Positions 7,117 to 28,154 of a DNA stretch of 64,000 nt are shown one piece after another. The stretch covers positions 2,208,412-2,272,411 of the forward strand of contig NZ_CP132335.1 in assembly GCF_030758295.1 (NCBI RefSeq), in the 5' to 3' direction. Positions within the stretch are counted from its first letter, which is position 1; the number at the start of each line of letters is the position of its first letter. Position numbers and translations under genes: made by a program. This DNA comes from Pararhizobium sp. IMCC21322. GTDB taxonomy: Bacteria; Pseudomonadota; Alphaproteobacteria; Rhizobiales; GCA-2746425. Below the pieces are notes generated by a model. The model had not been told where the DNA came from and made no database searches. It was given only the letters and a program-made list of their open reading frames with translations.

Positions 7117-7131
7117 ATTTGCCTGCGCCTG

Positions 7132-7350: not shown

Positions 7351-7363
7351 AACGGAGGAAAAT

Positions 7364-8386: not shown

Positions 8387-8389
8387 CTG

Positions 8390-8405: not shown

Positions 8406-8415
8406 GGTTTACTAA

Positions 8416-10817: not shown

Positions 10818-11740
10818 ACCTGACCGAGAAACCATGGATATGGGCCTGGCTTGGCACCGTCTCAATCTGGTTGGTGATTGCCTCCATTTCCGGTCTGTCC
10901 GCCGGGACAGAAGTCCTCACCGCTGCTGCATCCTTCGGAACGTTTTTCGTGTTGGTCGCCATCGGCCAGATGTTTGTCGTGACCCTTGGTCCGGGCAACG
11001 TGGATCTGTCGATACCCGCCTGTATGACACTGGCCAGTACCGTCGCGATGAAAGTGATGAATGGCTCTGAAGCCATGCTGATTCCGGGTTTTCTGATTGT
11101 CATTGCAATCGGGCTGACCATTGGTGCCTTCAATTTTGCGCTGATTATCCTGCTGCGCATCCCGCCGATCATCGCAACCCTGTCGTCCAGCTTTCTCTAT
11201 CTGTCGACGGCGATCTGGTACAATCGCGGTTTGCGCGTGAAACCACCTGAGGCACTGGCCGAGTTTGCGACCGGAAAAATTGGTGTGGTTCCGATGCTGG
11301 CCATCGCCGTACTGGTGCTGACGGTCTTCATGCATTTCGTCCTGCACCGAACCTATTTCGGCAGATCGATTCTGGCTGTTGGCCAGAATTCCAAAGCTGC
11401 ACATCTTGCCGGTATTCCGGTCGAGCGCACACGTTTTATGACCTATGTCATGTGCGCTGTCCTGGCTGCAATTTGTGGCTACTTTCTGGCTGGTTTTTCC
11501 GGAGGTGCGGCATTGAACATGGGCGAGGAATATCTGCTCATGTCCATCGCGGTCGTGGTTATTGGCGGAACCTCGGTTGCAGGTGGCTTCGCTAATCTGC
11601 CAGGCCTGTGGGGCGCTGCGCTTTTCATGTTCCTGCTGGTGACGATGCTGAACACGCTGGGCCTCAGCGCAGGATATCGTCTCATTCTGACCGGGACCAT
11701 CATTGTGGCAGTCATCGCGATTTCGGGCAAAAAGCGTTAA
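10814..11740 (+). CDS. sugar ABC transporter permease (CUT2, RbsC-like) 2
   Basis: The second 308-aa BPD_transp_2 permease. It carries VTLGPGNVDLSIPACMTLAS, AVGQNSKAAHLAGIPVERTR (the coupling loop facing the ATPase) and VVVIGGTSVAGGFANLPG. It overlaps its partner by 4 bp and is the last gene of the transporter operon. No catabolic enzyme follows, so the imported compound must be processed by genes elsewhere, possibly the gluconolactonase-like protein at the other end of this block. Confidence 0.9.
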   Translation: MNLTEKPWIWAWLGTVSIWLVIASISGLSAGTEVLTAAASFGTFFVLVAIGQMFVVTLGPGNVDLSIPACMTLASTVAMKVMNGSEAMLIPGFLIVIAIGLTIGAFNFALIILLRIPPIIATLSSSFLYLSTAIWYNRGLRVKPPEALAEFATGKIGVVPMLAIAVLVLTVFMHFVLHRTYFGRSILAVGQNSKAAHLAGIPVERTRFMTYVMCAVLAAICGYFLAGFSGGAALNMGEEYLLMSIAVVVIGGTSVAGGFANLPGLWGAALFMFLLVTMLNTLGLSAGYRLILTGTIIVAVIAISGKKR

Positions 11741-13574: not shown

Positions 13575-14472
13575 GGGTTTCCTTACCTGCGAGTGCTGTG
13601 AGGCATATCCGAGCAATTTCGACGTTTGTGCCAACTGCAAGGCGCGTTGATCCGCTGCTATCTTTTTCAAAAAGTGTTTTTCCGTAACTTTCATCTGAAA
13701 CAACCGAGACGCTCATAGCGCATGGCATGAATGCGAATGCCTCTGTTTGATGGCTGGCGAGTGCGGCAACCGGATCATATATCGCCATGCTGGTGTTCCC
13801 ACGAGAGAGCCCGATATCAAGATAGCCGCCCAGCAAATCAGAGGTCAGATCATCACATTTCGGCAGATCATCAGTTCCAAAGCGCACTTGGCGGCAAAGC
13901 GTCAGATCAATCACATCCAGATTTAGGCCAGCCTGCGCGACAATCGCTGCAGCTTCCGGGTCAGCAAGCGCGTTGAACTCAGCCTCTGCGGAATGGTTTC
14001 CAGGCCCATTGCTCCCGCCCATCCAGATAAGGCGCGTTATTTTCCGGGCCAGATCGGGCGCCGCGCTGATAAGGCGCGCAATATTTGTCAAAGGCCCAAT
14101 TGCCAGAATATCACGCTTGTCTTTGGGCCTTGCCGCGTGAAGCCATTGCTGAAATCCTTTGTCGGCATCGGGGAAGTCCTGTTTGCCAGCCACGTCAGGC
14201 AGATGTTGGCCACGGCTCAACATTCCGCGTGGCCCGAGAATGCGCTCGGCGGTTTCCAGAGGGCGAACGAGCGGGCGATCCGCCCCTTTAAAGATAGGAG
14301 CTTCCAGACCGTAGGCCTGCTGTGCCCCCAGAGCGTTGGACACCACCTGGGTGAGCGGCACATTTCCAGCAACCAATGAAAGGCCTGCGATGCGCACACC
14401 TAAATGGCGCAACAGCAGCATGGCCCAAAGATCGTCGAACCCGAAATCCGTATCGACCCAAATCTCGCTCAT
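13564..14472 (-). CDS. inosine-uridine-type nucleoside hydrolase
   Basis: A 302-aa IUNH-family enzyme that cleaves ribonucleosides to base and ribose. The calcium-binding N-terminus reads DTDFGFDD (Asp7, Asp9, Asp13, Asp14), where Phe replaces the usual Pro. EAEFNALADPEAA is the conserved ribose-binding segment. The second metal Asp is Asp233 in IYDPVAAL. At that point the base-leaving-group His found just before the Asp in many members is Tyr232, so base preference may differ. The start overlaps the ATPase stop by 4 bp, and the end overlaps adenine deaminase by 11 bp. Purine nucleosides are the likely substrates, judging from the neighbour. Confidence 0.88.
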   Translation of the reverse strand: MSEIWVDTDFGFDDLWAMLLLRHLGVRIAGLSLVAGNVPLTQVVSNALGAQQAYGLEAPIFKGADRPLVRPLETAERILGPRGMLSRGQHLPDVAGKQDFPDADKGFQQWLHAARPKDKRDILAIGPLTNIARLISAAPDLARKITRLIWMGGSNGPGNHSAEAEFNALADPEAAAIVAQAGLNLDVIDLTLCRQVRFGTDDLPKCDDLTSDLLGGYLDIGLSRGNTSMAIYDPVAALASHQTEAFAFMPCAMSVSVVSDESYGKTLFEKDSSGSTRLAVGTNVEIARICLTALAGKETHVD

Positions 14473-15482
14473 GCGAGAAGGGGGCGTGCTGTGGATTGCG
14501 GAAGGTCAAAGGCAATGCTCTGGCCCAGTGGCACCTCGGCTGTTTCAATCGGGGCGTCTGCTTTGATCTCGCCCAATTGGCAATCAAATACATATTCGCG
14601 GTGCCCTCCTGCAAAGCTGCTGGCAACAACGCGGCCGCTGAACGGGCCCTTTCCGACATGCACGCCGCCTGGCCGCCATGCGAGCATGGGCGAACGTGCC
14701 TCAAACCCCAATGGCAGTTGCCCGGAGTTGGAGACGAGGTTTTCACCCTCTACACGAAAGATGTTTTCAAAGCCCATAAACTCTGCGGCAAATGCTGTGG
14801 CTGGTTCTGCGTATAGCTGGCTTGGTGTGCCCAATTGTTCGATCTTGCCATCCTTCATCAGCACAATACGGTCTGCCAAAGCCAGTGCCTCGGATTGATC
14901 ATGGGTCACAAACACCATGGTCACCCCGGTATCTTTCTGGACGCGTTGCAATTCAGTTCGCATTTCCAACCGCAAACGTGCGTCTAGATTGGAAAGCGGC
15001 TCATCGAGCAGCAGAACCTTGGGTTCCATAACCAGCGACCGGGCCAGTGCCACACGTTGCTGTTGGCCGCCCGACATTTCAGCAGGTTTACGCGCTTCAA
15101 AACCAGCCAGGCCAACCGTTGCCATGCCAGCCTCCGTACGGGATCGGACTTCAGCATCAGCCATGTTCTTCAGGCGCAGGCCAAAGGCGACATTTTCAAA
15201 AGCGCTCAGATGGGGAAACAATGCGTAAGACTGAAACACCAGACCAATGCCGCGTTTGTTGGCCGCGAGCCGAGTGACGTCACGACCGTCGATCTCGATT
15301 GCACCCGATGTGGGCGTCAACAGACCGGCTATGGCGCGCATGGTGGTTGTTTTTCCGCATCCTGATGGCCCCAGCAGGGCGATCAACTCACCCTCCACGA
15401 CGTCAAGGTTGAGGTTCGGGACAGCAATTGTCTTTCCGTAAGACAGGGTCAGATTGGAGAGGCGGACATATTTATCAGACAT
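14469..15482 (-). CDS. ABC transporter ATPase, polyamine/iron (PotA/FbpC-like) family
   Basis: A 337-aa ABC ATPase with Walker A GPSGCGKTT, Q-loop FQSYALFPH, signature MSGGQQQRV, Walker B LLLDEPLSNLD, the H-loop in FVTHDQSEA and a C-terminal TOBE-like regulatory domain. The ATG at 15482 overlaps the permease stop by 8 bp and starts with the family sequence MSDKYVRLSNL; the longer frame upstream runs through the permease gene. By sequence it belongs with spermidine/putrescine and ferric transporters, yet it is fused by overlap to a nucleoside hydrolase gene. The operon therefore suggests a nucleoside or purine substrate. Confidence 0.88.
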   Translation of the reverse strand: MSDKYVRLSNLTLSYGKTIAVPNLNLDVVEGELIALLGPSGCGKTTTMRAIAGLLTPTSGAIEIDGRDVTRLAANKRGIGLVFQSYALFPHLSAFENVAFGLRLKNMADAEVRSRTEAGMATVGLAGFEARKPAEMSGGQQQRVALARSLVMEPKVLLLDEPLSNLDARLRLEMRTELQRVQKDTGVTMVFVTHDQSEALALADRIVLMKDGKIEQLGTPSQLYAEPATAFAAEFMGFENIFRVEGENLVSNSGQLPLGFEARSPMLAWRPGGVHVGKGPFSGRVVASSFAGGHREYVFDCQLGEIKADAPIETAEVPLGQSIAFDLPQSTARPLLA

Positions 15483-16251
15483 AACGAGAAAACCCCAAAA
15501 GACGTTCTGCGATGAAGACAATGGCAAGAGACATGAAAGCCAGCAGTGCAGACAAGGCCGCCACAGAGGGATCATATGTGATTTCCATATAAGCCAGCAT
15601 GTCGATGGGCAGTGTTTTCACGCCCGGACCGGACAGGAACAGCGAAACAGGAACCTGATTGAAACTGGTGACAAATCCCAGAATGAACGCTGCCAGAACC
15701 CCGCCACGAATGTTCGGCAACACCACTTTCATGAAAGCCTGCAACCTTGTGCATCCCAGTAATACGGCGGCTTCTTCCATATCAGCCCGCAGATTGTTCA
15801 GGCTTGATGAAACCACCCGCACGGCATAGGGCAGTACAAGGGCCGTGTGGGCCATGAACAGTGCCATTGTAACCGTAAAATCAAGCGGTATGACCAAATA
15901 GCGCAACAGCGCCAGACCTACGATGATGCCCGGCACAATGATTGGCGCGGCGACGATGGTTCTGATGGTCTCATTGCCCGGCAGATCATAGCGGTTCAGC
16001 GCGTAAGCCGCCGGTATGCCCAGCAGCAACGCTGTCAAAGTGCCGAAAATCGCCAGGAACATTGATAGTAAAAAACTATCGCGGAAGCTCTCGATGGTGA
16101 AAACTTTGAAATACCATTTCAGTGACAATCCATTGGGGGGAAAGGCCAGCGCTTCGCCAGCGGACGCACCGGCAAAAATGATGATGATGAATGGCCCGAT
16201 CAGAAAGGTCAGGGTAAGGCCGAGGATGCCCCAGATTGTGAGGTTTCTCAT
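15475..16251 (-). CDS. ABC transporter permease, PotC-like
   Basis: A 258-aa inner-membrane permease of the BPD_transp_1 family with about six helices. The EAA coupling loop reads MEEAAVLLGCTRLQAFMKVV followed by LPNIRGG. It forms the second half of a PotB/PotC-type heterodimer with the gene just upstream (4-bp gap). The downstream ATPase overlaps it by 8 bp. Confidence 0.88.
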   Translation of the reverse strand: MRNLTIWGILGLTLTFLIGPFIIIIFAGASAGEALAFPPNGLSLKWYFKVFTIESFRDSFLLSMFLAIFGTLTALLLGIPAAYALNRYDLPGNETIRTIVAAPIIVPGIIVGLALLRYLVIPLDFTVTMALFMAHTALVLPYAVRVVSSSLNNLRADMEEAAVLLGCTRLQAFMKVVLPNIRGGVLAAFILGFVTSFNQVPVSLFLSGPGVKTLPIDMLAYMEITYDPSVAALSALLAFMSLAIVFIAERLLGFSRYV

Positions 16252-16255
16252 GGAA

Positions 16256-17077
16256 CTATTTCCTTGCCGTTGCGATGCGCTTTAACAGCAGATTGGCTGT
16301 AAACGACATGACAATCAGGATCATTGCGATCACGCTGGCCGAGACGAAATCATTGGCCACATTGACCCTTTGATACAGCAGCGTCTCCAGCATCAGCACT
16401 TTTGATCCACCCAGGATGGCGGGCGTAATATAGGCTGTCAGTGCGCCGGTAAAGACAAGCGTACCACCAATAACGAGGCCCTCTTTGGTCAGCGGCAGGA
16501 TGACTTTGAAAAACACCTGAAACCAATTCGCGCCGAGCACGCGGGCAGCGGGTATGACGTCGCGGGGAATGTTTTCCATGGCTGAAATCAGCGAGATAAT
16601 CATCAGCGGCATGAAGAGTTGCAGCAAGCCCAGGAAAACCGCCGTTTCGGTAAACAGCAGGCGGATCGGCGTGTCAGAGAGGCCCAGTCCAACAATGGTG
16701 TCGTTCACGATCCCGGTTCGCCCCAAAATCACGATCCAGGCATAGGTGCGGGCAACCGGAGAAATCATCAATGGCAAAACCACCAGGCCGAAGATACGTC
16801 CCCGAGCCGAAGGAGGAAGATTGACGATACAAAACGCCGCCGCATAGCCGATAATTGCTGACGTGGCCGCAACCAGCACGCCCAGTTTCAGCGTGCGCAG
16901 GAACACCGTCCGGTTCAGCGGCTTTGAGAAAAACTCGATGTAGCCATTCAGTGTCCATCCGGCATCAGACCGAAACGCTTCTGACAACAGAATGCCGACA
17001 GGCACGATGAACAGCAGCAGCGCAAAGAACGCGGCAGGCAAGGCCAATGCAAGCCCTTCACGGGTGTTGAAAAACAT
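16256..17077 (-). CDS. ABC transporter permease, PotB-like
   Basis: A 273-aa inner-membrane permease (BPD_transp_1). An N-terminal hydrophobic helix is followed by a periplasmic loop (GYIEFFSKPLNRTVFLRTL), and the EAA loop reads IPAARVLGANWFQVFFKVIL. It lies 60 bp downstream of the binding-protein gene, with a GC-rich hairpin in between. It partners the PotC-like permease. Ligand identity is inferred from the operon only. Confidence 0.88.
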   Translation of the reverse strand: MFFNTREGLALALPAAFFALLLFIVPVGILLSEAFRSDAGWTLNGYIEFFSKPLNRTVFLRTLKLGVLVAATSAIIGYAAAFCIVNLPPSARGRIFGLVVLPLMISPVARTYAWIVILGRTGIVNDTIVGLGLSDTPIRLLFTETAVFLGLLQLFMPLMIISLISAMENIPRDVIPAARVLGANWFQVFFKVILPLTKEGLVIGGTLVFTGALTAYITPAILGGSKVLMLETLLYQRVNVANDFVSASVIAMILIVMSFTANLLLKRIATARK

Positions 17078-17109
17078 CTGCTTGGTCCGATCTCGAAACT
17101 GGAGATACA

Positions 17110-17129
17110 GGGCGGCCCAAAGACCGCCC
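17110..17129 (-). promoter_or_regulatory. GC-rich intercistronic hairpin between binding protein and permease
   Basis: GGGCGG (17110-17115) pairs with CCGCCC (17124-17129) across an 8-nt loop. On the transcribed minus strand it falls 9 nt after the binding-protein stop, with no T-run. This is the usual place for a stabilising or attenuating hairpin that raises binding-protein output over the membrane components. Confidence 0.5.
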
Positions 17130-17137
17130 CGTTGGTG

Positions 17138-18157
17138 TTATCTGATAACTTCAGTGTTCCACTGCTCGACCCACGCTTCGCGGCTGTCGATGATCTTTGC
17201 AGGATCAAGGATATTCAGGGAATTGATCAGCTCGGCCCCATAGGTGAGGTTGTCAGCAACGTCTTCGCTAACCACGACCTCTGTGTTCGCAGGACTGTCG
17301 ATGAGCGCCTCTGCAACGCGGGTCTGCACTTCGGTGGACAGCCAGTAATCCATGAACTGATAGGCCAGTTCTTCGTTGCCATTGCCTTTGGTCATGATCA
17401 TGACATTCATGCCGCCGGCTTGGCCTTCGGCTGGTTCTGCCCAGGCAAATGGCAATGGCGAACTTTTGAAACGGCTCCATGCAAAGCGCCCGACGGGAGC
17501 TGCAATCACTTCTTCCTGATTCATCAACTGCGCAAGTTCAGATGAGCGGGAATAGAAGGTGACGATATCGTCAGCATGTTCGCCAATGCTGGAGATTACA
17601 CTGGAATAATCGTCCGTTTCATTGCCCGCAGCTTTGGCCAACATCATCAAAGTAAGCGGTCCCTGCGTACCTGTGATGTTCGGGAGCGATACATTCCCGG
17701 CCAGCTTTTCGTCCAGCAAATCACCCCAGCTGGAAATCTCGACAAGGTCGGTCCTATAAACGATGGAACTGGCATAAAATGTATAGCCAACAGCCATGTT
17801 TCCACCAATCGGATCCTGCGCGGCAGCATAGAGTTTCCCATGGTTGGTGAGTTTTGAGATATCAAGCGGGGCCAGCAGATCCTTGCGCGCCAGGCTCAGG
17901 GCGTCGTGTGATGAAATCACCGCCATATCAATAACCGGGTCATTGGCATTGGCTTCGATCTTGGCCATACGCTCCACGCTGTTACCGGTTTCGATGACCA
18001 GATCACAGCCGCAAATGGCTTCAAATGGATCGTAAAGCGCTTCCTTGTAAGCGTCCTGTGCAAAGGAGTAGACCGAAATGGTCAGGGTTTTGTCTTGCGC
18101 GAATGCCGTTGAGGCAAGTGCGCAGGACAGCGCTGCTACAGTTAGTGTGGCTTTCAT
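17138..18157 (-). CDS. periplasmic solute-binding protein, PotD-like ABC transporter
   Basis: A 339-aa type II binding protein. A signal peptide is evident: MKATLTVAALSCALASTAFA before QDKTLTISVYSF. The mature protein shows the PotD/iron-type fold features YDPFEAICGCDLVIETGN near the N-terminus and VGYTFYASSIVYRTDLV in the hinge region. Its ATG overlaps the LacI regulator stop by 4 bp, an unusual arrangement in which the regulator is the first gene of the operon it controls. Together with nucleoside hydrolase and adenine deaminase, a nucleoside or modified nucleoside is the best guess for the ligand. Confidence 0.87.
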   Translation of the reverse strand: MKATLTVAALSCALASTAFAQDKTLTISVYSFAQDAYKEALYDPFEAICGCDLVIETGNSVERMAKIEANANDPVIDMAVISSHDALSLARKDLLAPLDISKLTNHGKLYAAAQDPIGGNMAVGYTFYASSIVYRTDLVEISSWGDLLDEKLAGNVSLPNITGTQGPLTLMMLAKAAGNETDDYSSVISSIGEHADDIVTFYSRSSELAQLMNQEEVIAAPVGRFAWSRFKSSPLPFAWAEPAEGQAGGMNVMIMTKGNGNEELAYQFMDYWLSTEVQTRVAEALIDSPANTEVVVSEDVADNLTYGAELINSLNILDPAKIIDSREAWVEQWNTEVIR

Positions 18158-19149
18158 TGAGAAATCTCCTGTTTGAAAGTGAGGTTTGGGTTGGGAGAGT
18201 GTCTTGGATTCGCTGTGGAATTTCGGACCACCAGATGCATGGGGATTGTGGATCCCATATCTGGCAGGCTTTCTCCACTGATGGCCAGTGTAAGAAGGTC
18301 GATGGCACGTTCCGCGATTTGCGCAACATCCTGCGCAACGGTGGTGAGCATCGGATGCATGGCTGTCGCCAAAGGCAAATCATCAAAGCCCGTGAGGCTG
18401 ACATCGCTTGGAACAGAAAATCCGGCGCGGGTTAAATGCGAATGCGCGCTGAGCGCCAGCAGGTCTGATGTGGTCATGATGGCGGTCACGCCTGATTCAA
18501 CGGCCCGGATCAGATTACCAAGACCGTCCTGGCTCCAAAATACCTGGAACTCGGATTCTCCGGCCAGACCGGATATCATGCCGTCAATTCTGTCGCCTTG
18601 CACTTCGGACACGGGGTCTGCGCCCAGCATCGCCACCTTTCGGTGTCCGAGACCTGCGACATGTGTGGCGATCAGTTTACCGCCGCCTGCATGATCCGCC
18701 GAAACAGTGTTTCTCGGATCAGAAGCCGTATTGATAATCACCGTTGGCACTGGTTGGGATTCGGGCGAGGTGCCCTTCTGCGGCACAATCAGCAGACCAT
18801 CGACCCCGCGATCAACAAGTCGGTTCATGGCCTGACTTTGTTCCATCGCATTGCCGCGAGAATCTGCGATTAAAATACTCAAATGACGGTTGTCCGCTTC
18901 CAGAGAGAGGTGCTGGGCAATGCGCGGAAAAAGCGGATTTGTAAGATCAGGCATCACCAATCCAAGGATGCCCGTTTGGCCACTGCGCAGCGCGCGGCCT
19001 GCAAGGCTGGGACGGTAGCCCAAGTCCTGCGCACATTTGCGAATACGCTCGACCATTTCCCGCGATACACGGCCTTTGCCGGTCAGGGCATTTGAAACGG
19101 TCGCGACCGAAACACCCATGTCCGCAGCAATTTGCTTGATATTGGCCAT
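18154..19149 (-). CDS. LacI-family transcriptional regulator of the nucleoside operon
   Basis: A 331-aa LacI/PurR-type repressor. The N-terminal HTH reads IKQIAADMGVSVATVSNALT, with a hinge helix near GYRPSLAGRALRSG, then a periplasmic-binding-like sensor domain. GGAGAAG precedes the ATG. It is the promoter-proximal gene of the transport/nucleoside hydrolase/adenine deaminase operon, joined by a 4-bp overlap. Two CG-centred operators (19163-19178 and 19208-19223) flank a strong promoter just upstream, so autoregulation of the whole operon is very likely. The inducer is probably a purine, nucleoside or ribose compound. Confidence 0.9.
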   Translation of the reverse strand: MANIKQIAADMGVSVATVSNALTGKGRVSREMVERIRKCAQDLGYRPSLAGRALRSGQTGILGLVMPDLTNPLFPRIAQHLSLEADNRHLSILIADSRGNAMEQSQAMNRLVDRGVDGLLIVPQKGTSPESQPVPTVIINTASDPRNTVSADHAGGGKLIATHVAGLGHRKVAMLGADPVSEVQGDRIDGMISGLAGESEFQVFWSQDGLGNLIRAVESGVTAIMTTSDLLALSAHSHLTRAGFSVPSDVSLTGFDDLPLATAMHPMLTTVAQDVAQIAERAIDLLTLAISGESLPDMGSTIPMHLVVRNSTANPRHSPNPNLTFKQEISQ

Positions 19150-19162
19150 CTCTTCTCCGGTT

Positions 19163-19178
19163 GATGAAACGATTAATC
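19163..19178. promoter_or_regulatory. LacI-type operator O1
   Basis: GATGAAACGATTAATC is a CG-centred imperfect palindrome of LacI-family type (5 of 7 half-site positions match). It overlaps the proposed -10 element of the minus-strand operon. A near copy lies 45 bp upstream. Confidence 0.7.
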
Positions 19179-19200
19179 ACTCCGGGGGCGATTCTGTCAA
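19172..19200 (-). promoter_or_regulatory. sigma-70-type promoter of the nucleoside operon
   Basis: On the minus strand a perfect -35 TTGACA (19195-19200) is followed by a 17-nt spacer and ATTAAT (19172-19177) as -10, matching four of six consensus bases. The -10 lies inside operator O1, which gives a direct repression mechanism. Confidence 0.6.
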
Positions 19201-19207
19201 CAGTGCT

Positions 19208-19223
19208 GATTAAACGATTAATC
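19208..19223. promoter_or_regulatory. LacI-type operator O2
   Basis: GATTAAACGATTAATC is a CG-centred palindrome with 6 of 7 half-site positions matching. It lies upstream of the -35 of the minus-strand operon and shares GAT-AAACGATTAATC with O1. The pair could support looping, or could also act on the divergent kinase gene. Confidence 0.72.
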
Positions 19224-19525
19224 CATGAAAATCTGACATGACTGTGAAGCTTGCCTGGAGAAGAAGCCAAACAATAACTTGAAAAAACCTGCATCCAAAT
19301 TGCGTCCAGACCTTATTCTGGTACCAAACCGAAGCGAGTGGCTGACAAATCGAATGGATTTTGATCCTTTCAGTCTCATTGCCTCTGATTAAATAAAACA
19401 CGCAAGCTTGTCAGCCAGAGAATTGAATCCTGGTGTGCTACCTCCATCGATTTTTCTGCAGCAATGGGTTATTACGGGCTGACACGAGTGCTTCAGGCGC
19501 ACTCTCCCACGCAGACGAGATCTTT

Positions 19526-20443
19526 ATGACCCCTGATATCCTATGCCTTGGCGAACCCATGCTTGAGTTTAATCAGCAGCCCGATGGCATGTATTTGCCG
19601 GGTCATGGCGGCGATACTTCCAATTGTGCCATTGCAGCAGCGCGTCAGGGCGCGAGCGCTGGCTGTTTGACTCACCTTGGCAAGGATGCGTTCGGAGACA
19701 GCTTCATGGCGCTTTGGATGTCCGAGGGTGTCAGCGTAGCCAATGTAGAGCAGATCACCGACGCGCACACAGGCATATATTTCGTCACCCATGGTGAAGA
19801 GGGCCATGAATTCAGTTATTTCCGCGCCGGATCAGCCTGTAGTCTCATGACCGCTGACGATTTGCCGAAGGGCGCTTTGCAATCCACCAAAATACTCCAC
19901 GCATCCGGCATCAGTCAGGGTATTTCAGAAAGTGCGGCAGATACAGTGTTTGCAGCAATGGATATTACCAAAGAGGCCGGTGGTCTGGTGTCGTATGACA
20001 CCAATTTGCGTGAGAAATTGTGGCCTTTATCACGGGCAAGAGCCATCATTCATGCAGCCGTCGCGCAATGTGATATCGCCTTGCCCGGATTGGATGATGC
20101 AGAACTCCTGACCGGAATGTCCGACCCGGAAGCCATAGTTCAGTTCTATCTTGGTCTGGGCGCAAAAATTGTTGCTTTGACTTTGGGGCCCAAAGGCACG
20201 CTGGTTGGAACAGAGTCAGAAGTCAGGATGATTCCGGGCCGCAAAGTCACCGCCGTGGACGCAACCGGGGCAGGAGATACATTTGACGGGGCATTCCTGT
20301 CGCAAATCGTTGCCGGATCAGATCCATTTACCGCAGCCAATTATGCCAATGCTGCGGCCGCCCTTTCGACGCAGGGCTATGGTGCCGTAGCACCGATGCC
20401 ATACGCTTCCGAGGTTCAGGCATTTTTGGCAGACACTGCATAA
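19526..20443 (+). CDS. PfkB-family sugar kinase (2-keto-3-deoxygluconate kinase/ribokinase-like)
   Basis: A 305-aa carbohydrate kinase. The N-terminal sugar-binding stretch ILCLGEPMLEFN and the glycine motif GHGGDTSNCAIAAARQG are followed by the C-terminal PfkB signature DATGAGDTFDGAFL with its catalytic Asp. The frame runs 93 nt further upstream, but family alignment favours the ATG at 19526. It is divergent from the nucleoside operon. The N-terminus is closest to KDG kinases; phosphorylation of ribose released by the nucleoside hydrolase is an attractive alternative. Confidence 0.8.
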   Translation: MTPDILCLGEPMLEFNQQPDGMYLPGHGGDTSNCAIAAARQGASAGCLTHLGKDAFGDSFMALWMSEGVSVANVEQITDAHTGIYFVTHGEEGHEFSYFRAGSACSLMTADDLPKGALQSTKILHASGISQGISESAADTVFAAMDITKEAGGLVSYDTNLREKLWPLSRARAIIHAAVAQCDIALPGLDDAELLTGMSDPEAIVQFYLGLGAKIVALTLGPKGTLVGTESEVRMIPGRKVTAVDATGAGDTFDGAFLSQIVAGSDPFTAANYANAAAALSTQGYGAVAPMPYASEVQAFLADTA

Positions 20444-20477: not shown

Positions 20478-21347
20478 TCAAACCATGGCTGCAGCTTTTG
20501 CAAATGGCATGAAGGTGCGGATCAACTTGCTGTCCAGCCGCTCACGCAGGCAGATCAGCGCTTCATCCATGGTGATATTCGCGTCCGCAATTTCAATCTT
20601 GCAGAGCCGCTGATCAACCCCGAATTCGGCTTCTGAAACCAGTCCCACGCCAGCACCGGCGGCAACAATCTCACGAACAGCCTCGCGGCCTTCCGCCTCT
20701 ATTCGGACTGGCAGATCAATATTGTTCTTGCGCGCAAACTCCTCCAGCTTGGAGCGGGTTTTTGAACCTTTTTCCCGCATCACCAGGGGCATTTCTGCCA
20801 GTTCCCGAAAGCTGATCGATTTTTTGGCTGCATAGATACTGTCTTTGGGCGCAAAGGCGATTATAGGGGTGGAGTTCAGATGCACGACTTGAAAGTCACG
20901 CCCTTCCGGAACTTCTCCCAATACGCCAATATCCGCTTCATAGGTATTCAGTGCATCGATAACCGCTTCGCTGTTACCGACACGTATTGAGACGTGGATA
21001 TCTGGATAGCTGACGCGAAACGACCCAAGAATATGCAATATATGATGGGCTGAATCAGCCATGATCTGAAGATTTCCGGATTTCAGCGCGCGGGTTTGTG
21101 ACAACAAATCATGAGCCTGTGTCTCAATCTCAAACATGCGCCGCGTCAGTTCCAGCAATTCCTGGCCTGCTGCTGTTACCGTTACCTGTTTGCGATGCCG
21201 ATTAAAAAGACGCACGTCATATTCCGTTTCAAGTTTACGAACCTGATCGGAAATTGCCGGCTGTGTCAGATGCAGGGCTTCCGCTGCCCGAGAAAAACCA
21301 CCATGGCAGGCCACATAGTGAAAGGCGCGCAATTGGACGTAGCGCAA
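20478..21347 (-). CDS. LysR-family regulator, likely of the phosphonate operon
   Basis: A 289-aa LysR-type regulator. The start is taken as the TTG at 21347: it begins MRYVQLRAFHYVACHGGFSR at the normal LysR N-terminus and has GTGGAGA just upstream. An ATG-initiated frame from 21530 would add 61 non-homologous residues and overlap the divergent gene. The HTH contains RAAEALHLTQPAISDQVRKL, and the co-inducer domain follows. It is divergent from the Na/Pi cotransporter-phnW-phnA-phnY genes, the classic arrangement for a LysR activator; 2-aminoethylphosphonate or a pathway intermediate is the likely co-inducer. Confidence 0.85.
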   Translation of the reverse strand: MRYVQLRAFHYVACHGGFSRAAEALHLTQPAISDQVRKLETEYDVRLFNRHRKQVTVTAAGQELLELTRRMFEIETQAHDLLSQTRALKSGNLQIMADSAHHILHILGSFRVSYPDIHVSIRVGNSEAVIDALNTYEADIGVLGEVPEGRDFQVVHLNSTPIIAFAPKDSIYAAKKSISFRELAEMPLVMREKGSKTRSKLEEFARKNNIDLPVRIEAEGREAVREIVAAGAGVGLVSEAEFGVDQRLCKIEIADANITMDEALICLRERLDSKLIRTFMPFAKAAAMV

Positions 21348-21424
21348 GGGTATCTCCACTTCTATCAGCAAATCAGATACTGTAATAAGAACTATCGTTT
21401 TGATTAATGCAACACTCTTCCCGT

Positions 21425-21478
21425 AATCGCGAAGATCGTTTATATTAGCCGTCAAACAAAATGATCGTGAATCGCGAA
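21425..21478. promoter_or_regulatory. candidate LysR binding region with repeated motif
   Basis: The 142-bp divergent region contains AATCGCGAA twice (21425-21433 and 21470-21478) and GATCGT twice (21434-21439 and 21463-21468), so the two arms share sequence with different spacing. The second copy runs into the Shine-Dalgarno region of the Na/Pi cotransporter gene. This is the expected place for the LysR operator. Confidence 0.45.
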
Positions 21479-21489
21479 TAGGATTTTCA

Positions 21490-23139
21490 ATGCATCTCTC
21501 AGGTTTTCTGGTGCAATTGGCGGGCGCCATAATGCTTCTGCTTTACTCAACTCGAATGGTGCGGACGGGTATCGAGCGGGCAGCAGGGCCAATGCTGCGC
21601 ACTCTGTTTGTGAAATTGGGAAAAGGACGCTTCAGAAGCGTTTTTGCCGGCGTGGTCGGCGCTATCTTTTTGCAAAGCTCCACTGCCATTGCCTTGCTCG
21701 TTTCAGGGTTTGCCGCAACCGGTGTGGTCAGTGTTACGGCTGCGCTTGCTATTGTGCTGGGAGCCGATCTTGGCACGGCCATTGTGGTTCAGTTCCTGAG
21801 CCTTGATCTCACCTGGCTTATGCCTGCATTGCTGGCCATTGGCGGCTTCATGTTCCTGAAAATGCATACGCGACTGGCCAAGCAACTGGGCAGGGTGGTG
21901 ATTGGCATTGCGCTGATATTGTTGTCGCTGGGCATGATTGGCACCGCCAGCGCGCCCTTGCGTGAAGCAAGCTGGATGCCGGGCATTGTCAATTTTATGA
22001 GCGAAGACCTGCTGATTTCCTTCTTCGGCGGTGCTTTGTTGGCCTTTTTGTTCCATTCCAGTGTTGCAGCCATTTTGCTGTTCGCAACCTTGTGCGCTCA
22101 AAGTGTTCTGCCAATTGAGGCAGGCTTGCCTCTGGTTCTGGGCGCTAATGCCGGTGGGGGGCTTATTGCAGTGTGGCTGTCCCGGGGTGGAAAAATGCCG
22201 GCACGCCATGTGACGGCCAGTAACTTCCTGTTCCGTCTCGTTGGCGGGTTGGCGGTGCTCGCGGTTTTATACGGCATGGATATTCCTACCGACCGGCTTG
22301 GCCCATCGGCAGATCGCCAATTGGTGAATTTCCACCTGCTTTTCAATGCCGGCCTTGTGATTGTCTGTCTGCCATTCATTCAGCCGGTGCTGGCACTGAT
22401 GCGCGGACTCATCAAAGAAGACCCGGAGAGTGAGCAGGAACGCTTGCGACCAGCAAGTGCGCTGGATGCCGCAGTGCTCAAAACGCCGAGCCTTGCCCTA
22501 GCCAGCGTCACCCGTGAATTGCTGCGTATGAGCGAAATCGTTGAAATCATGGTAACCCCGGTCATGGATTTCTTTGATGCGTCCAATCCGCAGCAGGTCC
22601 AGCGTATCCGGCAGCTCGATAACGATGTGAACCGCGCACACACTGAGATCAAGCTCTACATTGCTCAACTCAGCCAGAACGAATTATCATCAGACGAAGC
22701 AAATCGTGCGGTGGAATTGACCAGCGTCGCCATAAGTCTGGAACGCGTTGGCGACATCATTTCAAAAGAGCTGTTGCCCCTGACGGTGGAAAAGCATCGT
22801 CGTAATCTGGAGTTTTCAGAAGCAGGTTGGAAAGAACTCACCACGCTCCACGCCCGTGTCATCACCAATATGCAATTGGCACTTAACGTGCTGGTTTCCG
22901 AAGATATTGAGACGGCCAGAAAGCTGGTTGAGGAGAAGGCGGTGATGCGCAAACTGGAACGGGAAAGCCATGACAAGCACATGGCACGGCTTGGCAGCGG
23001 CACGCCTGAAAGCCGTGCCAGCAGTGACATTCATCTGGAAACCATTCGGGCACTGAAAGAAATCAACTCGCGATTTGCCACCTTTGCCTACCCGACACTG
23101 GAGCGGCGCGGAATTTTGCTGGACAGCCGTCTGAGCTAA
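21490..23139 (+). CDS. Na/Pi cotransporter family protein with PhoU-like domain
   Basis: A 549-aa membrane protein of the NptA/PNaS family. The transmembrane half (about 1-300) has two repeats, with the signature LQSSTAIALLVSGFA in the first and FHSSVAAILLFATL in the second. A C-terminal soluble region of paired helices (about 340-540) resembles PhoU. It is the first gene divergent from the LysR regulator, immediately before phnW. Bacterial members have been linked to phosphate efflux as well as uptake, so a role in disposing of phosphate released by phosphonoacetate hydrolase is plausible. AGGAT precedes the ATG. Confidence 0.87.
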   Translation: MHLSGFLVQLAGAIMLLLYSTRMVRTGIERAAGPMLRTLFVKLGKGRFRSVFAGVVGAIFLQSSTAIALLVSGFAATGVVSVTAALAIVLGADLGTAIVVQFLSLDLTWLMPALLAIGGFMFLKMHTRLAKQLGRVVIGIALILLSLGMIGTASAPLREASWMPGIVNFMSEDLLISFFGGALLAFLFHSSVAAILLFATLCAQSVLPIEAGLPLVLGANAGGGLIAVWLSRGGKMPARHVTASNFLFRLVGGLAVLAVLYGMDIPTDRLGPSADRQLVNFHLLFNAGLVIVCLPFIQPVLALMRGLIKEDPESEQERLRPASALDAAVLKTPSLALASVTRELLRMSEIVEIMVTPVMDFFDASNPQQVQRIRQLDNDVNRAHTEIKLYIAQLSQNELSSDEANRAVELTSVAISLERVGDIISKELLPLTVEKHRRNLEFSEAGWKELTTLHARVITNMQLALNVLVSEDIETARKLVEEKAVMRKLERESHDKHMARLGSGTPESRASSDIHLETIRALKEINSRFATFAYPTLERRGILLDSRLS

Positions 23140-23164
23140 GGCCTGAACTCAATTGGGATTTGAA

Positions 23165-23195
23165 AAATCGATAATTCAATACGTATTATCGATTT
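23165..23195. promoter_or_regulatory. perfect 11-bp inverted repeat upstream of phnW
   Basis: AAATCGATAAT (23165-23175) and ATTATCGATTT (23185-23195) are perfect complements separated by a 9-nt spacer, in the 126-bp gap between the Na/Pi cotransporter and phnW. It is AT-rich with no following T-run, so an operator is more likely than a terminator. The ATAAT-N9-ATTAT core fits a LysR-type site. Confidence 0.6.
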
Positions 23196-23265
23196 AACAT
23201 ATGGGGTGGCAGACACTATTTTTGCCATTCGCACTCCCTATTGTTCTTCCGGATAGGCTCAGCCC

Positions 23266-24456
23266 ATGACATCAGTTCCCAAAAATCCAATAAGCCCGCC
23301 GCCGCTGGGCGAACCTTATTTGCTGACGCCTGGTCCTTTGACAACAGCCTATTCAGTCAAGGAAGCCATGCTGCGCGACTGGGGGTCCTGGGACGGGGAT
23401 TTCCGGGCGATGACAGCACAATTGCGGGCTGACTTGCTGGATTTGATTGGCGATACAGATAATGCATTTGATTGCGTTCCCATTCAGGGCAGTGGCACCT
23501 TTGTCGTTGAGGCCATGCTGGCATCCTTTCTGCCAAGAGAGTCGAAAACGCTGGTGCTGGTCAATGGAGCCTATGGCAACCGGATTGCCGAAACGCTGAA
23601 ATATCTGGGACGAGATCATACCATCATCGACAAGGGCGATTATCTGCCGCCGCGCGCCACAGAGGTCGCAGCAGCGCTGGAAGCAGACCCTGCAATCAGT
23701 CATGTCGTGGTGGTGCATTGCGAAACCAGCTCTGGCATCCTCAACCCGATCAAGGAAATATCGGACACGGTTTATCAGGCAGGCTGCAAGCTGCTGATTG
23801 ATTCCATGAGCGCATTTGGCGCATTGCCGGTGGATGTGGATGCCATAAATTATGAAGCAATTGTTGCCTCAGCCAATAAGTGCATTGAGGGTGTGCCCGG
23901 ATTTGGCTTCGTAATTGGCCGCAAGAGTGAGTTGGAATTGGCAAAAGGACGCAGCCATTCGCTCAGCCTTGATGTCCATGCCCAATGGGCCAACATGAAT
24001 AAAACCGGGCAATGGCGCTTCACTCCGCCCACGCATGTTGTGGCAGCCTTTATGGAGGCGCTGCGCCTGCATAAGGAAGAGGGTGGTGTCGCTGGCCGGG
24101 GTCAGCGCTATACGGAAAACCGCGATGTTCTGGTCAAGGGCATGCGCGATATCGGTTTTGAAACCCTTTTGACAGAGCCATGGCTGTCTCCGATCATCGT
24201 GACCTTTTTCAACCCGGCCCACGCTGCCTTTGAATTTCAGAAGTTCTATGACGCCATGAAAAAACGGGGCTTCATCATCTACCCTGGCAAACTGACTGTC
24301 GTGGACAGTTTCCGCATCGGCTGTATTGGCCATATGGACGGGGCGATCATGCAGCAGGTTGTGGACGCCGCGCGCGACGTGTTGGTGGAACTGGGCGTTG
24401 ACAGTGCAAGACCGCCGGAAATCGCTCTTCTGGAACGTTCCAAACTGGCTGCCTGA
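23266..24456 (+). CDS. phnW: 2-aminoethylphosphonate--pyruvate transaminase
   Basis: A 396-aa class V PLP aminotransferase. It moves the amino group of 2-aminoethylphosphonate to pyruvate, giving phosphonoacetaldehyde and alanine. Diagnostic segments are LLTPGPLTT and AMLRDWGSWDGDF near the N-terminus, HCETSSGILNP, the cofactor Asp in LLIDSMSAFGALPVD, and the PLP Lys205 in VASANKCIEGVPGFGF. The next two genes carry out the following two oxidation/hydrolysis steps, so the assignment is supported by context as well as sequence. The ribosome site is weak (GGATAGG). Confidence 0.95.
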   Translation: MTSVPKNPISPPPLGEPYLLTPGPLTTAYSVKEAMLRDWGSWDGDFRAMTAQLRADLLDLIGDTDNAFDCVPIQGSGTFVVEAMLASFLPRESKTLVLVNGAYGNRIAETLKYLGRDHTIIDKGDYLPPRATEVAAALEADPAISHVVVVHCETSSGILNPIKEISDTVYQAGCKLLIDSMSAFGALPVDVDAINYEAIVASANKCIEGVPGFGFVIGRKSELELAKGRSHSLSLDVHAQWANMNKTGQWRFTPPTHVVAAFMEALRLHKEEGGVAGRGQRYTENRDVLVKGMRDIGFETLLTEPWLSPIIVTFFNPAHAAFEFQKFYDAMKKRGFIIYPGKLTVVDSFRIGCIGHMDGAIMQQVVDAARDVLVELGVDSARPPEIALLERSKLAA

Positions 24457-24526
24457 GGCGGCCCGCTAATTGCCTTTCAAACCGGTTGTGACCACGCAGC
24501 CGACACAGATTTTGGAAAGAACAAGA

Positions 24527-25780
24527 ATGAATGATCTGTCACCCATGAACATCACCGTCAATGGCCGCACCTATGCCAGACCTAAAGTGCCAGCCATTGC
24601 CATTTGTCTTGATGGTTGCGAACCGGCTTATCTGGATGAAGCCATCGCAGCCGGTCTGATGCCAACGTTGAAGCGCATCAAGCAAAGCGGCACGGTGCGC
24701 ATGGCGCACAGCGTCATCCCCAGCTTTACCAACCCGAACAATCTGTCGATCGCGACCGGACGACCACCGTCTGTCCACGGCATTTGTGGCAACTTCCTCT
24801 ATGATCCGGACACCGGTGAGGAAGTGATGATGAACGATGTTCGCTTCCTGCGCGCACCAACTATTTTCCAGACCTGTTTTGATGCCGGCTTGCGTGTTGC
24901 CATTGTCACGGCAAAAGACAAATTACGGGCTTTGCTGGGGAGCGGGCTGAGCTTTGAAGACGGCCGCGCCATGTGTTTCTCGGCGGAACGATCCGATACG
25001 ACGACAGTGGCTGAACACGGCATCGACAATGCATCAGCGCATTTTGGATTGCCCGTTCCAGACGTTTATTCAGCAGAATTATCCGAATTCGTTTTTGCTG
25101 CCGGTGTGCAATTGTTGAAAGAGTTCAAGCCGGATGTGATGTATCTGACCACCACCGATTATGTGCAGCACAAATATGCGCCGGGCGTGCCTCAGGCCAA
25201 TGCGTTCTATGAAATGTTCGACAAATATCTGACGGAACTGGATGCAGCAGGCGCTGCCATTGTGGTCACCGCTGATCACGGCATGAAACCAAAACATCTT
25301 GAAAATGGCGATCCTGCCGTCGTCTATCTGCAGGATTTGCTGGATGAATGGCTGGGCGAAGCCGCTGCCCGCGTCATTCTGCCGATTACCGACCCTTACG
25401 TGGTGCATCACGGCGCGCTTGGCTCGTTTGCCACCGCCTATCTGCCTGATGGTGTGAATGCAGTAGAGATCGTCACCCGTCTTGGCGGTGTTGATGGGAT
25501 ATTGCTGGTCGTCGATAAGAAAACGGCTTGTGAGCGGTTTGAACTGCCTGATGATCGCATTGGCGACATCGTGGTCATCTCAACAGAAAACATGACCCTT
25601 GGCACAAGCGCACATCGGCATGATCTGGCAGCGCTTGATGAACCGCTGCGCTCGCATGGCGGGCTGACAGAGCAGGAAGTGCCGTTCATCGTTAACCGGG
25701 TTTTGCCCGATTTGCAGGACGCGCCAACGCTTCGCAATTTTGACGCCTTTCACATTGCCTGCATGGCAGCCGCGCTTTAA
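24527..25780 (+). CDS. phnA: phosphonoacetate hydrolase
   Basis: A 417-aa alkaline-phosphatase-superfamily hydrolase that cleaves the C-P bond of phosphonoacetate to acetate and phosphate. Two-metal-site residues can be read in order: Asp29 (CLDGCEP), nucleophile Thr68 (PSFTNPNN), Asp212 and His216 (TTDYVQHKYAPG), Asp251-His252 (VTADHGM) and His378 (LRSHGG). These match the pattern known for Sinorhizobium PhnA nearly one to one. The ATG at 24527 is chosen; the frame extends upstream without a good start. It lies between phnW and phnY. Confidence 0.95.
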   Translation: MNDLSPMNITVNGRTYARPKVPAIAICLDGCEPAYLDEAIAAGLMPTLKRIKQSGTVRMAHSVIPSFTNPNNLSIATGRPPSVHGICGNFLYDPDTGEEVMMNDVRFLRAPTIFQTCFDAGLRVAIVTAKDKLRALLGSGLSFEDGRAMCFSAERSDTTTVAEHGIDNASAHFGLPVPDVYSAELSEFVFAAGVQLLKEFKPDVMYLTTTDYVQHKYAPGVPQANAFYEMFDKYLTELDAAGAAIVVTADHGMKPKHLENGDPAVVYLQDLLDEWLGEAAARVILPITDPYVVHHGALGSFATAYLPDGVNAVEIVTRLGGVDGILLVVDKKTACERFELPDDRIGDIVVISTENMTLGTSAHRHDLAALDEPLRSHGGLTEQEVPFIVNRVLPDLQDAPTLRNFDAFHIACMAAAL

Positions 25781-25804
25781 GTCGCGCGTATTCGGGAACC
25801 CTTT

Positions 25805-27259
25805 ATGTTGAACTCAGATTTCAAAATTCGAAATGACGCTATGCGGATTGGCGGTGAAAAGATCTTCACCAAGGATCTGGTGGAAGTGCGCTATCCCTAC
25901 GCCGATGAGGTCATTGGAACTGTGCCTGCAGGTACGGCTGAGCATGCAGCTGAAGCGTTTGAAATAGCTGCTAATTACCGACCAACCCTCACGCGCTATG
26001 AGCGTCAACAGATACTTTTTCGCACTGCGCAACTGATTGTTGAACGCCGGGAAGAAATCGCTCATTGGCTGACCCTGGAGCTTGGCATCTGCAAACAGCA
26101 TTCATTGTATGAAACCGGCCGGGCCTATGATGTGTTCATGCTGGCTGGTCAGTTGGCGATACTGGATGACGGACAGATTTATTCCTGCGATCTGACGCCA
26201 CATGGCAAAGATCGAAAGATTTACACCATGCGGGAACCGGTTGGTGCCATCTCGGCCATCACTCCGTTCAACCATCCGCTGAATATGGTTTCGCATAAAA
26301 TTGCGCCTTCCATCGCGACCAACAATTGCATGGTCTGCAAGCCGACAGAATTAACACCACTGACGGCCATTACACTGGCCGACATTCTCTATGAAGCGGG
26401 TCTGCCGAAAGAGATGTTCCAGATTGTCACTGGAATGCCCGCTGATATCGGTGATGAGATGATCACCAATGAGCATATCGACATCATCACATTCACCGGC
26501 GGCGTGAAGGTCGGTAAAATGATTGCTGGTAAGGCGGCCTACAAACGCACCGCGCTGGAATTGGGCGGCAATGATCCGTTGATCATTCTGAACGATCTGT
26601 CAGAGGCTGATCTGGAAAAAGCGGCAACGATCGCCGTTGCCGGAGCCACGGGCAATTCCGGCCAGCGCTGTACCGCCGTCAAACGCATTCTGGCGCAGGA
26701 TTCCATCGCTGATAAGTTGGTGGAACTGATCACGGAAAAGGCCAAAGCCATTCGCTTCGGTGATCCCCAGGATTCAGATACCCAATTGGGTTGCGTTATC
26801 CATGCACATGCCGCTGAAACCTTTGAATCCCGTGTCTATGAGGCGGAGAAACAGGGCGCAAAAGTGCTGTATAATCCGGGTCGTAATGGCGCTTTATTGC
26901 CACCGATCGTTGTGGATCATGTGCCGCATGACAGCGAATTGGTCTATGAGGAAACCTTCGGACCTATCATCCCGATTGTGCGTGTTCCGGAGAATGATGA
27001 CGAAGTCATGCGGATCTCGAATTCTACGGAATTTGGTTTGTCCTCGGGCGTTTGCACCAATGATCTGAACCGCGCGATTTCTTACATCAATGGTCTGAAT
27101 GTCGGCACGGTCAACATTTGGGAACAGCCCGGATATCGCATCGAGATGTCTCCTTTTGGCGGCATCAAGGATTCTGGTAATGGTGTGAAAGAGGGCGTTC
27201 TGGAAGCCATGAAATTCTTCACCAACGTCAAGACTTATTCGCTGCCCTGGCCGCGCTGA
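25805..27259 (+). CDS. phnY: phosphonoacetaldehyde dehydrogenase
   Basis: A 484-aa ALDH-superfamily enzyme that oxidises phosphonoacetaldehyde to phosphonoacetate using NAD. Visible features are PFNHPLN (159-ish), FTGGVKVGK, the general base Glu252 in LELGGND and the catalytic Cys289 in [10 protein letters not shown], then EETFGPIIP. It is 24 bp downstream of phnA and completes the PhnW-PhnY-PhnA route, in which the aldehyde is oxidised before hydrolysis instead of being cleaved by phosphonatase (PhnX). No phnX is seen. Confidence 0.93.
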
Positions 27260-27302
27260 ATGTGTGGATAGGTGAGGGCGGCACTGCGCCTGCCCGATCA
27301 TC

Positions 27303-28154
27303 ATGACAGGACCTCCGTCACTTCTTGCCCTCAGCATGATTCTCTCGGCGGCAGTCCTGCATGCAACATGGAATGCCATCATAAAGGGCTCCGCCGACCG
27401 GGCCCTTGCGATGGGATTGCTCAATTTGGGCCATACTGCGCTGGGTCTGGTGCTGGTTCTTCTCTATGCTCCCCCGGCGGCTGAAGCCTGGCCGTTCATC
27501 ATTGCCTCAACCTTTATTCACTTCTTCTATTACGGATTTTTGCTGTGGGCCTACCGGCACGGTGATCTCAGTCAGGTCTATCCCATCGCCAGGGGCATTG
27601 CCCCTGTTCTGGTTGCCTTGGGCGCGCAGGTTTTTGCAGATGAATTTCTGCCGCCAATTGCCTGGGCAGGTATTCTGCTGGTGTCTTTCGGCATCAGTGT
27701 TTTGTTTTTCGGGCGCAGGCACAATGCGGCAAGTGCTCAGGCTATTTCTGCCGCTGTTTTGACCGGCATTGCCATTGCATCCTACTCGATCGTGGATGGT
27801 CTGGGCGTGCGCGCCTCCCAGAGTCCGCTCGGCTATATTGGCTGGTTGTTTTTACTGGAATGCATTCCGGGCGTCTTTTTCATTGTCTATCGTCGGAAGC
27901 ACTTGAGCGGTATTCAAACCAAAATTCTGACCATTGGTATTGGCGGAGGGCTGTTATCTGCGGTCGCCTATGGCCTCGCGATTTATGCCAAGAGCCTTAC
28001 GAGCCTAGGCACCGTTTCCGCGATTCGCGAATCCAGTGTCATCATCGCAGCACTCATCGGCGTGATCTGGTTCAAGGAACGACCGTGGAAATTGCGTATG
28101 CTGGCGGCCATGATAGTGGCAGGCGGCGTTGTTTTATTGGCCGTTGGCGGGTAA
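27303..28154 (+). CDS. EamA/DMT-superfamily transporter
   Basis: A 283-aa integral membrane protein with two EamA repeats and about ten hydrophobic helices. Recognisable family features are LHATWNAIIKGSADR in the first repeat and RESSVIIAALIGVIWFKERP in the second. It lies 43 bp after phnY with the same orientation and is the last gene before a convergent hairpin. No phosphonate ABC transporter (phnSTUV or phnCDE) is present, so this protein is a candidate phosphonate-pathway transporter, either importing aminoethylphosphonate or exporting a by-product. That role is inference. Confidence 0.8.
   Translation: MTGPPSLLALSMILSAAVLHATWNAIIKGSADRALAMGLLNLGHTALGLVLVLLYAPPAAEAWPFIIASTFIHFFYYGFLLWAYRHGDLSQVYPIARGIAPVLVALGAQVFADEFLPPIAWAGILLVSFGISVLFFGRRHNAASAQAISAAVLTGIAIASYSIVDGLGVRASQSPLGYIGWLFLLECIPGVFFIVYRRKHLSGIQTKILTIGIGGGLLSAVAYGLAIYAKSLTSLGTVSAIRESSVIIAALIGVIWFKERPWKLRMLAAMIVAGGVVLLAVGG

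Follow-up and report, generated by a model that had tools for sequence, protein, structure and literature searches.

How does a bacterium with a full set of genes for breaking down 2-aminoethylphosphonate (AEP) take the compound up, when the operon itself holds no gene for an AEP importer of the ATP-binding cassette (ABC) type? The question is posed by a 64,000-nucleotide stretch of the Pararhizobium sp. IMCC21322 genome (C1:2208412–2272411, here called the window; the genome is a single contig of 5,252,332 bases), in which five plus-strand genes run from 21490 to 28154, with gaps of 126, 13, 24 and 43 bases between successive genes: a Na/Pi cotransporter gene, phnW, phnA, phnY and an EamA gene. 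Uptake decides the availability of AEP, a common natural phosphonate, and, according to passages of PMC8316502, aepX-type marker genes are used to judge its marine turnover. A sequence-only reading of the window had proposed that the Na/Pi and EamA (DMT-type) membrane proteins act in place of an ABC importer. We favor a different explanation, drawn from sequence comparisons and given a probability of roughly 0.6: a standard AEP operon, served by an AepXVW importer encoded elsewhere in the genome, together with a YjbB-type phosphate vent and an accessory EamA protein.

An AepXVW importer encoded 2.45 Mb from the operon

The family model for AepX-type binding proteins (TIGR03261) matches the genome at C1:4683004–4683978 with about 508 bits (508.2–508.3; cut-off 392.75). 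The genes adjacent to aepX match AepV (TIGR03265, 515.4 bits) and AepW (TIGR03262, 785.3 bits), both also over their cut-offs, and AepX is 75% identical (236/314) to an AepX-type protein of Aminobacter; at the level of the family cut-offs, the presence of AepXVW is secured. The locus lies 2.45 Mb from the operon in the same single-contig genome and reads DeoR-like gene (named by eye), FAD-oxidoreductase/GcvT fusion, aepX, aepV, aepW, HAD hydrolase. High-affinity AEP uptake would most likely proceed through this importer at 4.68 Mb. Because it sits elsewhere in the same genome, the Na/Pi and EamA proteins are probably accessory; in this strain, they probably supplement the ABC importer instead of substituting for it. 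The absence of a phosphonate ABC importer, as claimed by the sequence-only reading, therefore holds for the operon but not for the genome, which encodes AepXVW, an AepX-like system and a PhnD-like protein. That reading had itself called for a genome search, and the dedicated importer that the search returned by family cut-offs is the first half of what it had named as evidence to the contrary. When an operon has no gene for an expected transporter, the whole genome needs to be searched for one.

Comparison with known clusters reveals that the arrangement is mostly familiar. In Sinorhizobium meliloti 1021 (pSymB), a single cluster has the order FAD/GcvT, LysR, Na/Pi, phnW, phnA, phnY, aepX, aepV, aepW, whereas the window genome has two distant loci; the S. 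meliloti proteins are 65% (LysR), 47% (Na/Pi), 75% (PhnW), 77% (PhnA) and 71% (PhnY) identical to those of the operon, and 75% (FAD/GcvT), 73% (AepX), 68% (AepV) and 68% (AepW) identical to those of the 4.68-Mb locus. Judged by gene content and identity, the two loci are the halves of one known cluster, although the S. meliloti stretch contains no EamA match and the window operon does. An EamA-type gene is present on plasmid paAMD1 of Aminobacter niigataensis (LysR / Na/Pi–phnW–phnA–phnY–DMT–aepX–aepV–aepW), which shares the five-gene order, including the DMT gene, at 52–78% identity, and in which aepXVW directly follows the DMT gene, whereas the window operon has no importer attached. Leisingera likewise has phnWAY–DMT–aepXVW, with GcvT pieces in between. 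The attachment of aepXVW to the same operon in these relatives, together with its presence over all cut-offs in the window genome, speaks against the membrane proteins standing in for an ABC importer in this genome. AepXVW has been characterized, with S. meliloti also named, in passages of PMC8316502; in the window genome it is known from its genes, yet not beside phnWAY. The useful remainder of the present locus is the EamA clade and three sister species in which AepX is missing, both described below.

The FAD-oxidoreductase/GcvT fusion lies directly upstream of aepXVW (6116–8731 of locus L019, C1:4674000–4692000), and our guess is that it may demethylate N-methyl-AEP. Downstream of the block, at 14547–15556 of the same locus, is a transposase-like pair of open reading frames (ORFs; DDE_3 and HTH domains), and the block may therefore have been acquired separately.

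Other candidate importers were also considered. A second AepX-like ABC system at 5,069 kb scores 229 bits and lies beside TIGR03223 (DUF1045) and PhnM genes; this block spans 4047–11459 of locus L021 (C1:5062000–5076000), and a PhnM gene in a genome with no PhnJ match is puzzling. At 2,590 kb, the genome encodes a PhnD-like binding protein that exceeds the cut-off of the broad model TIGR01098 but not that of the PhnD model TIGR03431; genes adjoining it were identified by eye as those of an ATPase and a permease. AepP is related to the OPA family, and the model for that family (TIGR00881, the query being the family model and not the AepP sequence of P. putida) has a cut-off of 407.75 bits; the highest score was 52.1 bits in the window genome and 87.4 bits among four sister genomes. 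Within the window, the minus-strand ABC system at 14469–18157 was rejected as a candidate for AEP import, as the PhnS model (cut-off 395.3) gives its binding protein no more than 42.5 bits. This low score and the neighboring genes (nucleoside hydrolase, adenine-deaminase-type protein, LacI-type regulator and PfkB kinase) make a purine/nucleoside locus likelier.

Enzymes of the operon

The PhnW–PhnY–PhnA route put forward by the sequence-only reading is supported by the family scores, as all three proteins exceed curated cut-offs: PhnW (23266–24456, plus strand) with 470.4 against 400.8 bits (TIGR02326), PhnA (24470–25780, plus) with 527 against 407.55 bits (TIGR02335) and PhnY (25805–27259, plus) with 753.1 against 635.65 bits (TIGR03250). 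The alignments to solved relatives are near full length and the expected motifs are conserved, in keeping with the earlier claim of intact active sites. PhnW aligns to PDB 7e7g (402 bits) across the NKC/GKC lysine region, PhnY aligns to 4i3t (772 bits) with NSGQRC and LELGG kept, and the alignment of PhnA to 3szy (742 bits) begins at residue 19; we take the residues in these motifs to be the catalytic ones. The phnA ORF opens with TTG, and its start is probably the ATG at 24527. Only one protein in the whole genome, PhnW itself, exceeds the cut-off of the PhnW-type model TIGR03301, and no genome match was found at E ≤ 0.001 to PhnJ (PF06007), by which membership in the C–P lyase route was judged. 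From family membership, PhnW would convert AEP and pyruvate to phosphonoacetaldehyde and alanine, PhnY would oxidize phosphonoacetaldehyde to phosphonoacetate, and PhnA would split phosphonoacetate into acetate and phosphate. Taken with the rest of the favored explanation, and at the same probability, the locus appears to be an ordinary phnWAY operon for AEP.

Distribution of the membrane genes and the case of the sister species

To place the operon in context, genomes of the same class and order were surveyed. With the own genome included, PhnA is present at E ≤ 1e-60 in 44 of 385 class genomes and 52 of 249 order genomes, and all 45 non-own PhnA places from the class list and all 54 from the order list were inspected. 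AepX exceeds its cut-off in 29 of the 44 and 17 of the 52 PhnA genomes, respectively. Excluding the own genome, a full phnWAY locus is present in 30 of 51 order genomes, of which 23 have a Na/Pi gene nearby and 10 an EamA-type gene, and in 23 of 43 class genomes, with Na/Pi near in four and EamA near in one. The place of the Na/Pi gene beside phnWAY in the order is not chance.

Replacement of the ABC importer as a general rule was rejected by these data, as genomes that lack AepX are no richer in either membrane gene. Across the 53 full-locus genomes of both samples, AepX exceeds its cut-off in 17 of 27 genomes with the Na/Pi gene and 15 of 26 without it; for EamA, the corresponding counts are 7 of 11 and 25 of 42. 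These counts exclude the own genome, leave out 41 genomes with no full locus, depend on bit-score thresholds that we set and include some loci cut by contig ends; the EamA threshold also took in proteins from outside the clade of the window protein described below (tree rows L097, L099, L100, L113, L118, L135 and L140).

Within the genus, four other PhnA genomes in the sample keep the gene order of the operon, although in one (G525) about 2 kb separates the Na/Pi gene from phnW. G525 is the only one of the four with AepX over the cut-off; the gene lies beside the operon, and aepV is present as two overlapping ORFs. The other three (G423, G462 and G496) are 98–100% complete, two of them single-contig, and have no AepX over the cut-off; in G462, the LysR and operon proteins are 92–97% identical to those of the window. 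As these three sisters keep the operon, a non-ABC route is possible there. An AepX-like protein of 228–239 bits is encoded in all five same-genus PhnA genomes, and AEP may enter the three sisters by the EamA protein, the Na/Pi protein or this AepX-like system.

The sisters provide an argument for a self-contained operon, into which AEP would enter by EamA (or the Na/Pi protein) with no ABC importer needed, and the low OPA-family scores in the window and sister genomes argue in the same direction. Nevertheless, we consider such an operon unlikely here: the window genome has AepXVW, neither membrane gene is anticorrelated with AepX, and the 228–239-bit AepX-like protein could itself import phosphonates.

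Two further groups were observed among the inspected places. In genomes of 1.2–1.6 Mb (L097, L099 and L100), phnA lies near an EamA gene outside the window clade, with uncertain placement on long branches. In L089, L092 and L094, phnA–phnY pairs occur with AepV-like ATPase genes and with no phnW in the stretch; these are possibly phosphonoacetate users.

The EamA protein and its possible cargo

As the sequence-only reading had stated, an EamA protein (27303–28154, plus strand; PF00892) ends the operon. Its sole NCBIfam match, end to end, is TIGR03340 (phn_DUF6), described as a 'phosphonate utilization associated putative membrane protein'; it scores 155.8 bits, and the cut-off of 288.15 is reached in none of the 52 order genomes with PhnA. 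In a tree of 39 rows, the protein falls in a clade of 11 (support 96/95), of which ten members have phn genes as neighbors and the eleventh, that of Ruegeria pomeroyi (L105), a Na/Pi gene; three paralogues from the same genome and seven other EamA proteins encoded near phnA fall outside it. Among the ten phn-linked members, aepXVW adjoins in six (one of these, G583, has an in-frame stop in aepX), and lies elsewhere in one (the window genome), whereas three have no AepX over the cut-off. This distribution, too, counts against a self-contained operon, whereas the occurrence of the clade beside aminophosphonate genes of several routes, and the precedent of LicB as a DMT importer, count in its favor.

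All clade members share three residues, H44, Y77 and S162, which occur in 0, 2 and 1, respectively, of 21 unlinked paralogues. Relatives of the protein were then drawn from a collection of 84,980 species' genomes, and the best 80 of 565 were compared. An aminophosphonate enzyme is encoded in the stretch at 23 of 38 loci with the three-residue signature and at 1 of 42 without it, and a Na/Pi gene at 13 of 38 and 6 of 42, respectively, with phmmer thresholds that we set; contig ends truncate several of these loci, and the L243 contig has the same length and content as L148, a locus from which the signature was in part defined. The enzymes differ between signature loci: many have phnWAY, L248 and L253 have PhnX over its cut-off, L239 and L245 have PbfA, and L235 has TmpA and TmpB over their cut-offs beside aepXVW, LysR, Na/Pi and an EamA protein of 68–69% identity. 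Neither alanine nor acetate is common to all these routes, whereas an aminophosphonate and phosphate are, and the cargo of the EamA protein is therefore likelier AEP-like or phosphate. On these gene neighborhoods, AEP or a compound closely related to it is the most likely substrate.

A structure model of the protein (pLDDT 93.1, pTM 0.91) gave 39 fold matches at E ≤ 0.001, all of them, by title or as we take them to be, DMT-superfamily structures. The best pair of TM-scores, 0.81/0.82, is with the choline importer LicB, at 13% sequence identity and with a different ligand, and this likeness of fold makes AEP uptake by the EamA protein possible. The triose-phosphate/phosphate translocator shares the fold with TM-scores of 0.64/0.60, which, with the Na/Pi partner at 13 of 38 signature loci, could suggest that the EamA protein is an AEP/phosphate exchanger, or an exporter of phosphate or of toxic intermediates of phosphonate breakdown. 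As these scores are below those to LicB, we judge such a role improbable from the model. Export of a by-product, either alanine from PhnW or acetate, was also considered. Many EamA proteins are amino-acid exporters, PhnW is of a family that makes alanine, and the fold match with the best E-value, 5i20, is presumably one such exporter (YddG). However, the 68–69% identical EamA protein at L235 accompanies Na/Pi, aepXVW and tmpA–tmpB, a route that yields neither product, and other relatives sit with phnX or pbfA, leaving by-product export with little probability.

Uptake of AEP by the EamA protein is tentatively proposed on the basis of its clade and context, with a probability short of even that the presumed exporter at the top of the E-value list of fold matches makes slightly lower. 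Among the titles listed in searches of openly licensed literature, none concerns AEP uptake by an EamA or DMT protein, which is weak evidence that no such report exists. The protein would assist the ABC importer, and in the sisters that have no AepX it may be the chief AEP route. A bolder version is doubtful, namely that the H44/Y77/S162 clade is a dedicated LicB-like AEP importer that serves more than one catabolic route (for AEP itself and for N-methyl or hydroxy relatives), provides the main entry in the AepXVW-less sisters and forms, with the YjbB-type exporter, a non-ABC pair of intake and exhaust. If AEP is indeed also carried by a DMT permease, surveys based on ABC markers overlook users of the compound.

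Further EamA relatives occur in a different setting, beside N-formylglutamate-amidohydrolase-like and glutamine-synthetase-like genes, many of them in roseobacters: L262, L267, L269 and L285 with a Na/Pi gene, and also L254, L255, L257, L258, L260, L261, L270, L275 and L284. The L262 stretch also has an aldehyde dehydrogenase gene. These loci possibly encode a gamma-glutamyl route, as yet undescribed, that handles an amine containing phosphorus. At L236, L238 and L277, EamA relatives lie near sulfatase-superfamily genes (a Sulfatase domain at L277; by eye at L238), the PehA model reaches 497.9 bits at L236, below its cut-off of 900, and PhnD-like genes are present at L236 and L238; the context is perhaps one for phosphonate esters.

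The Na/Pi protein as a putative phosphate vent

The gene that leads the operon (21490–23139, plus strand) encodes, as the sequence-only reading had recognized, a Na/Pi cotransporter with a PhoU domain, with two Na_Pi_cotrans stretches (PF02690, 119.1 bits) and a C-terminal PhoU domain (PF01895, 64.9 bits). It is 35% identical (188/536) to Escherichia coli YjbB over the full length, with the PhoU-containing C-terminus aligned, and the E. coli gene is annotated as a 'putative inorganic phosphate export protein'. YjbB is treated as a Pi exporter in passages of PMC11389368, and passages of PMC8316502 describe Pi export by cells growing on AEP as nitrogen source. The window protein has the same domains as the YjbB exporter of E. 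coli and Salmonella and differs from it in its place inside a catabolic operon. Because of the identity to YjbB, we read it as a phosphate exporter, which would likely vent surplus phosphate when AEP is burned for carbon or nitrogen. If true, a phosphate-export gene within catabolic operons would explain the release of phosphate by cells burning AEP for nitrogen.

Import of AEP by this protein through sodium symport has been proposed in the literature. Passages of a 2023 review (PMC10574752) note that the S. meliloti operon encodes a Na+ symporter as well as an ABC transporter, and suggest the former for AEP uptake, and passages of the Shinella DD12 paper (PMC4748535) report phnWAY with yjbB (labeled 'sodium/phosphonate symporter'), fbpABC and lysR. 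The linkage to phnWAY in 23 of 30 full-locus order genomes is consistent with such a role, but AepX coexists in 14 of those 23 and the protein is YjbB-like over its whole length, such that sodium-driven AEP import seems quite unlikely. Its relatives outside phnWAY point the same way: among 14 plasmid stretches, hand-picked from 60 of 384 records, a small-molecule phosphatase, nucleotidase or phosphodiesterase is annotated in six (L201, L203, L205, L207, L208 and L209), a count with no background rate. The layout of pTiC58 (DeoR, ABC importer, Na/Pi, sucrose phosphorylase) recurs in two others, L211 and L212; no clear link is seen in the other six. These neighbors suggest a phosphate vent in phosphate-releasing loci.

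The second Na-Pi motif was tried and rejected as a mark of phosphonate specificity, as the phn-linked proteins have HSS or HST (one YSS), but E. coli YjbB also has YSS. On Agrobacterium-group plasmids, L201 (pTiC58), L211 and L212 place a YjbB-type gene beside sucrose phosphorylase and a DeoR–ABC set; we presume that these pTiC58-type loci are perhaps tied to agrocinopine use.

Evidence that weighs against the favored explanation

Several observations count against a standard operon served by a distant AepXVW with accessory membrane proteins. The aepXVW genes lie at a great distance from phnWAY and next to a gene for a different enzyme, and may therefore mainly serve an N-methylated relative of AEP. 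Three of the five same-genus operon genomes (G423, G462 and G496) have no AepX over the cut-off, and so AepXVW is not always needed. For the EamA protein, the context test ignores kinship, the signature loci being closer relatives, and the fold match with the best E-value is to 5i20 (titled only 'protein'), the presumed exporter YddG, with CMP-sialic-acid and nucleotide-sugar transporters also ahead of LicB (rank 22) by E-value. Finally, the uptake proposal in passages of PMC10574752 and the symporter label given to yjbB in those of PMC4748535 assign the Na/Pi protein a different role. Weighed together, the evidence partly confirms what the sequence-only reading had observed, and its interpretation is partly supported.

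Regulator, promoter region and neighboring genes

Upstream of the operon, on the minus strand, lies a gene whose longest ORF (20478–21530) encodes a LysR-type regulator of the kind associated with AEP catabolism. Its match to TIGR03339 (phn_lysR) starts at residue 66 and reaches 335.9 bits, slightly under the cut-off of 341.1, and its true start is probably at about 21360. As part of the favored explanation, a phn-type LysR is most likely the regulator of the phnWAY operon. Databases already connect LysR- and EamA-type genes with phosphonate use, both proteins here being under the respective cut-offs. The Pho box whose presence the sequence-only reading had suggested checking was not found: a Pho-box pattern has no match at up to three mismatches in the divergent intergenic region (21360–21489, left edge inferred), which was read and scanned as the promoter region, and gave 11 matches against 6.3 expected in the whole window. 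Further upstream, at 11796–20443, an adenine-deaminase-type gene, a nucleoside hydrolase gene, the PotD/PotB-type ABC importer, a LacI-type regulator and a PfkB kinase gene probably constitute a purine/nucleoside locus.

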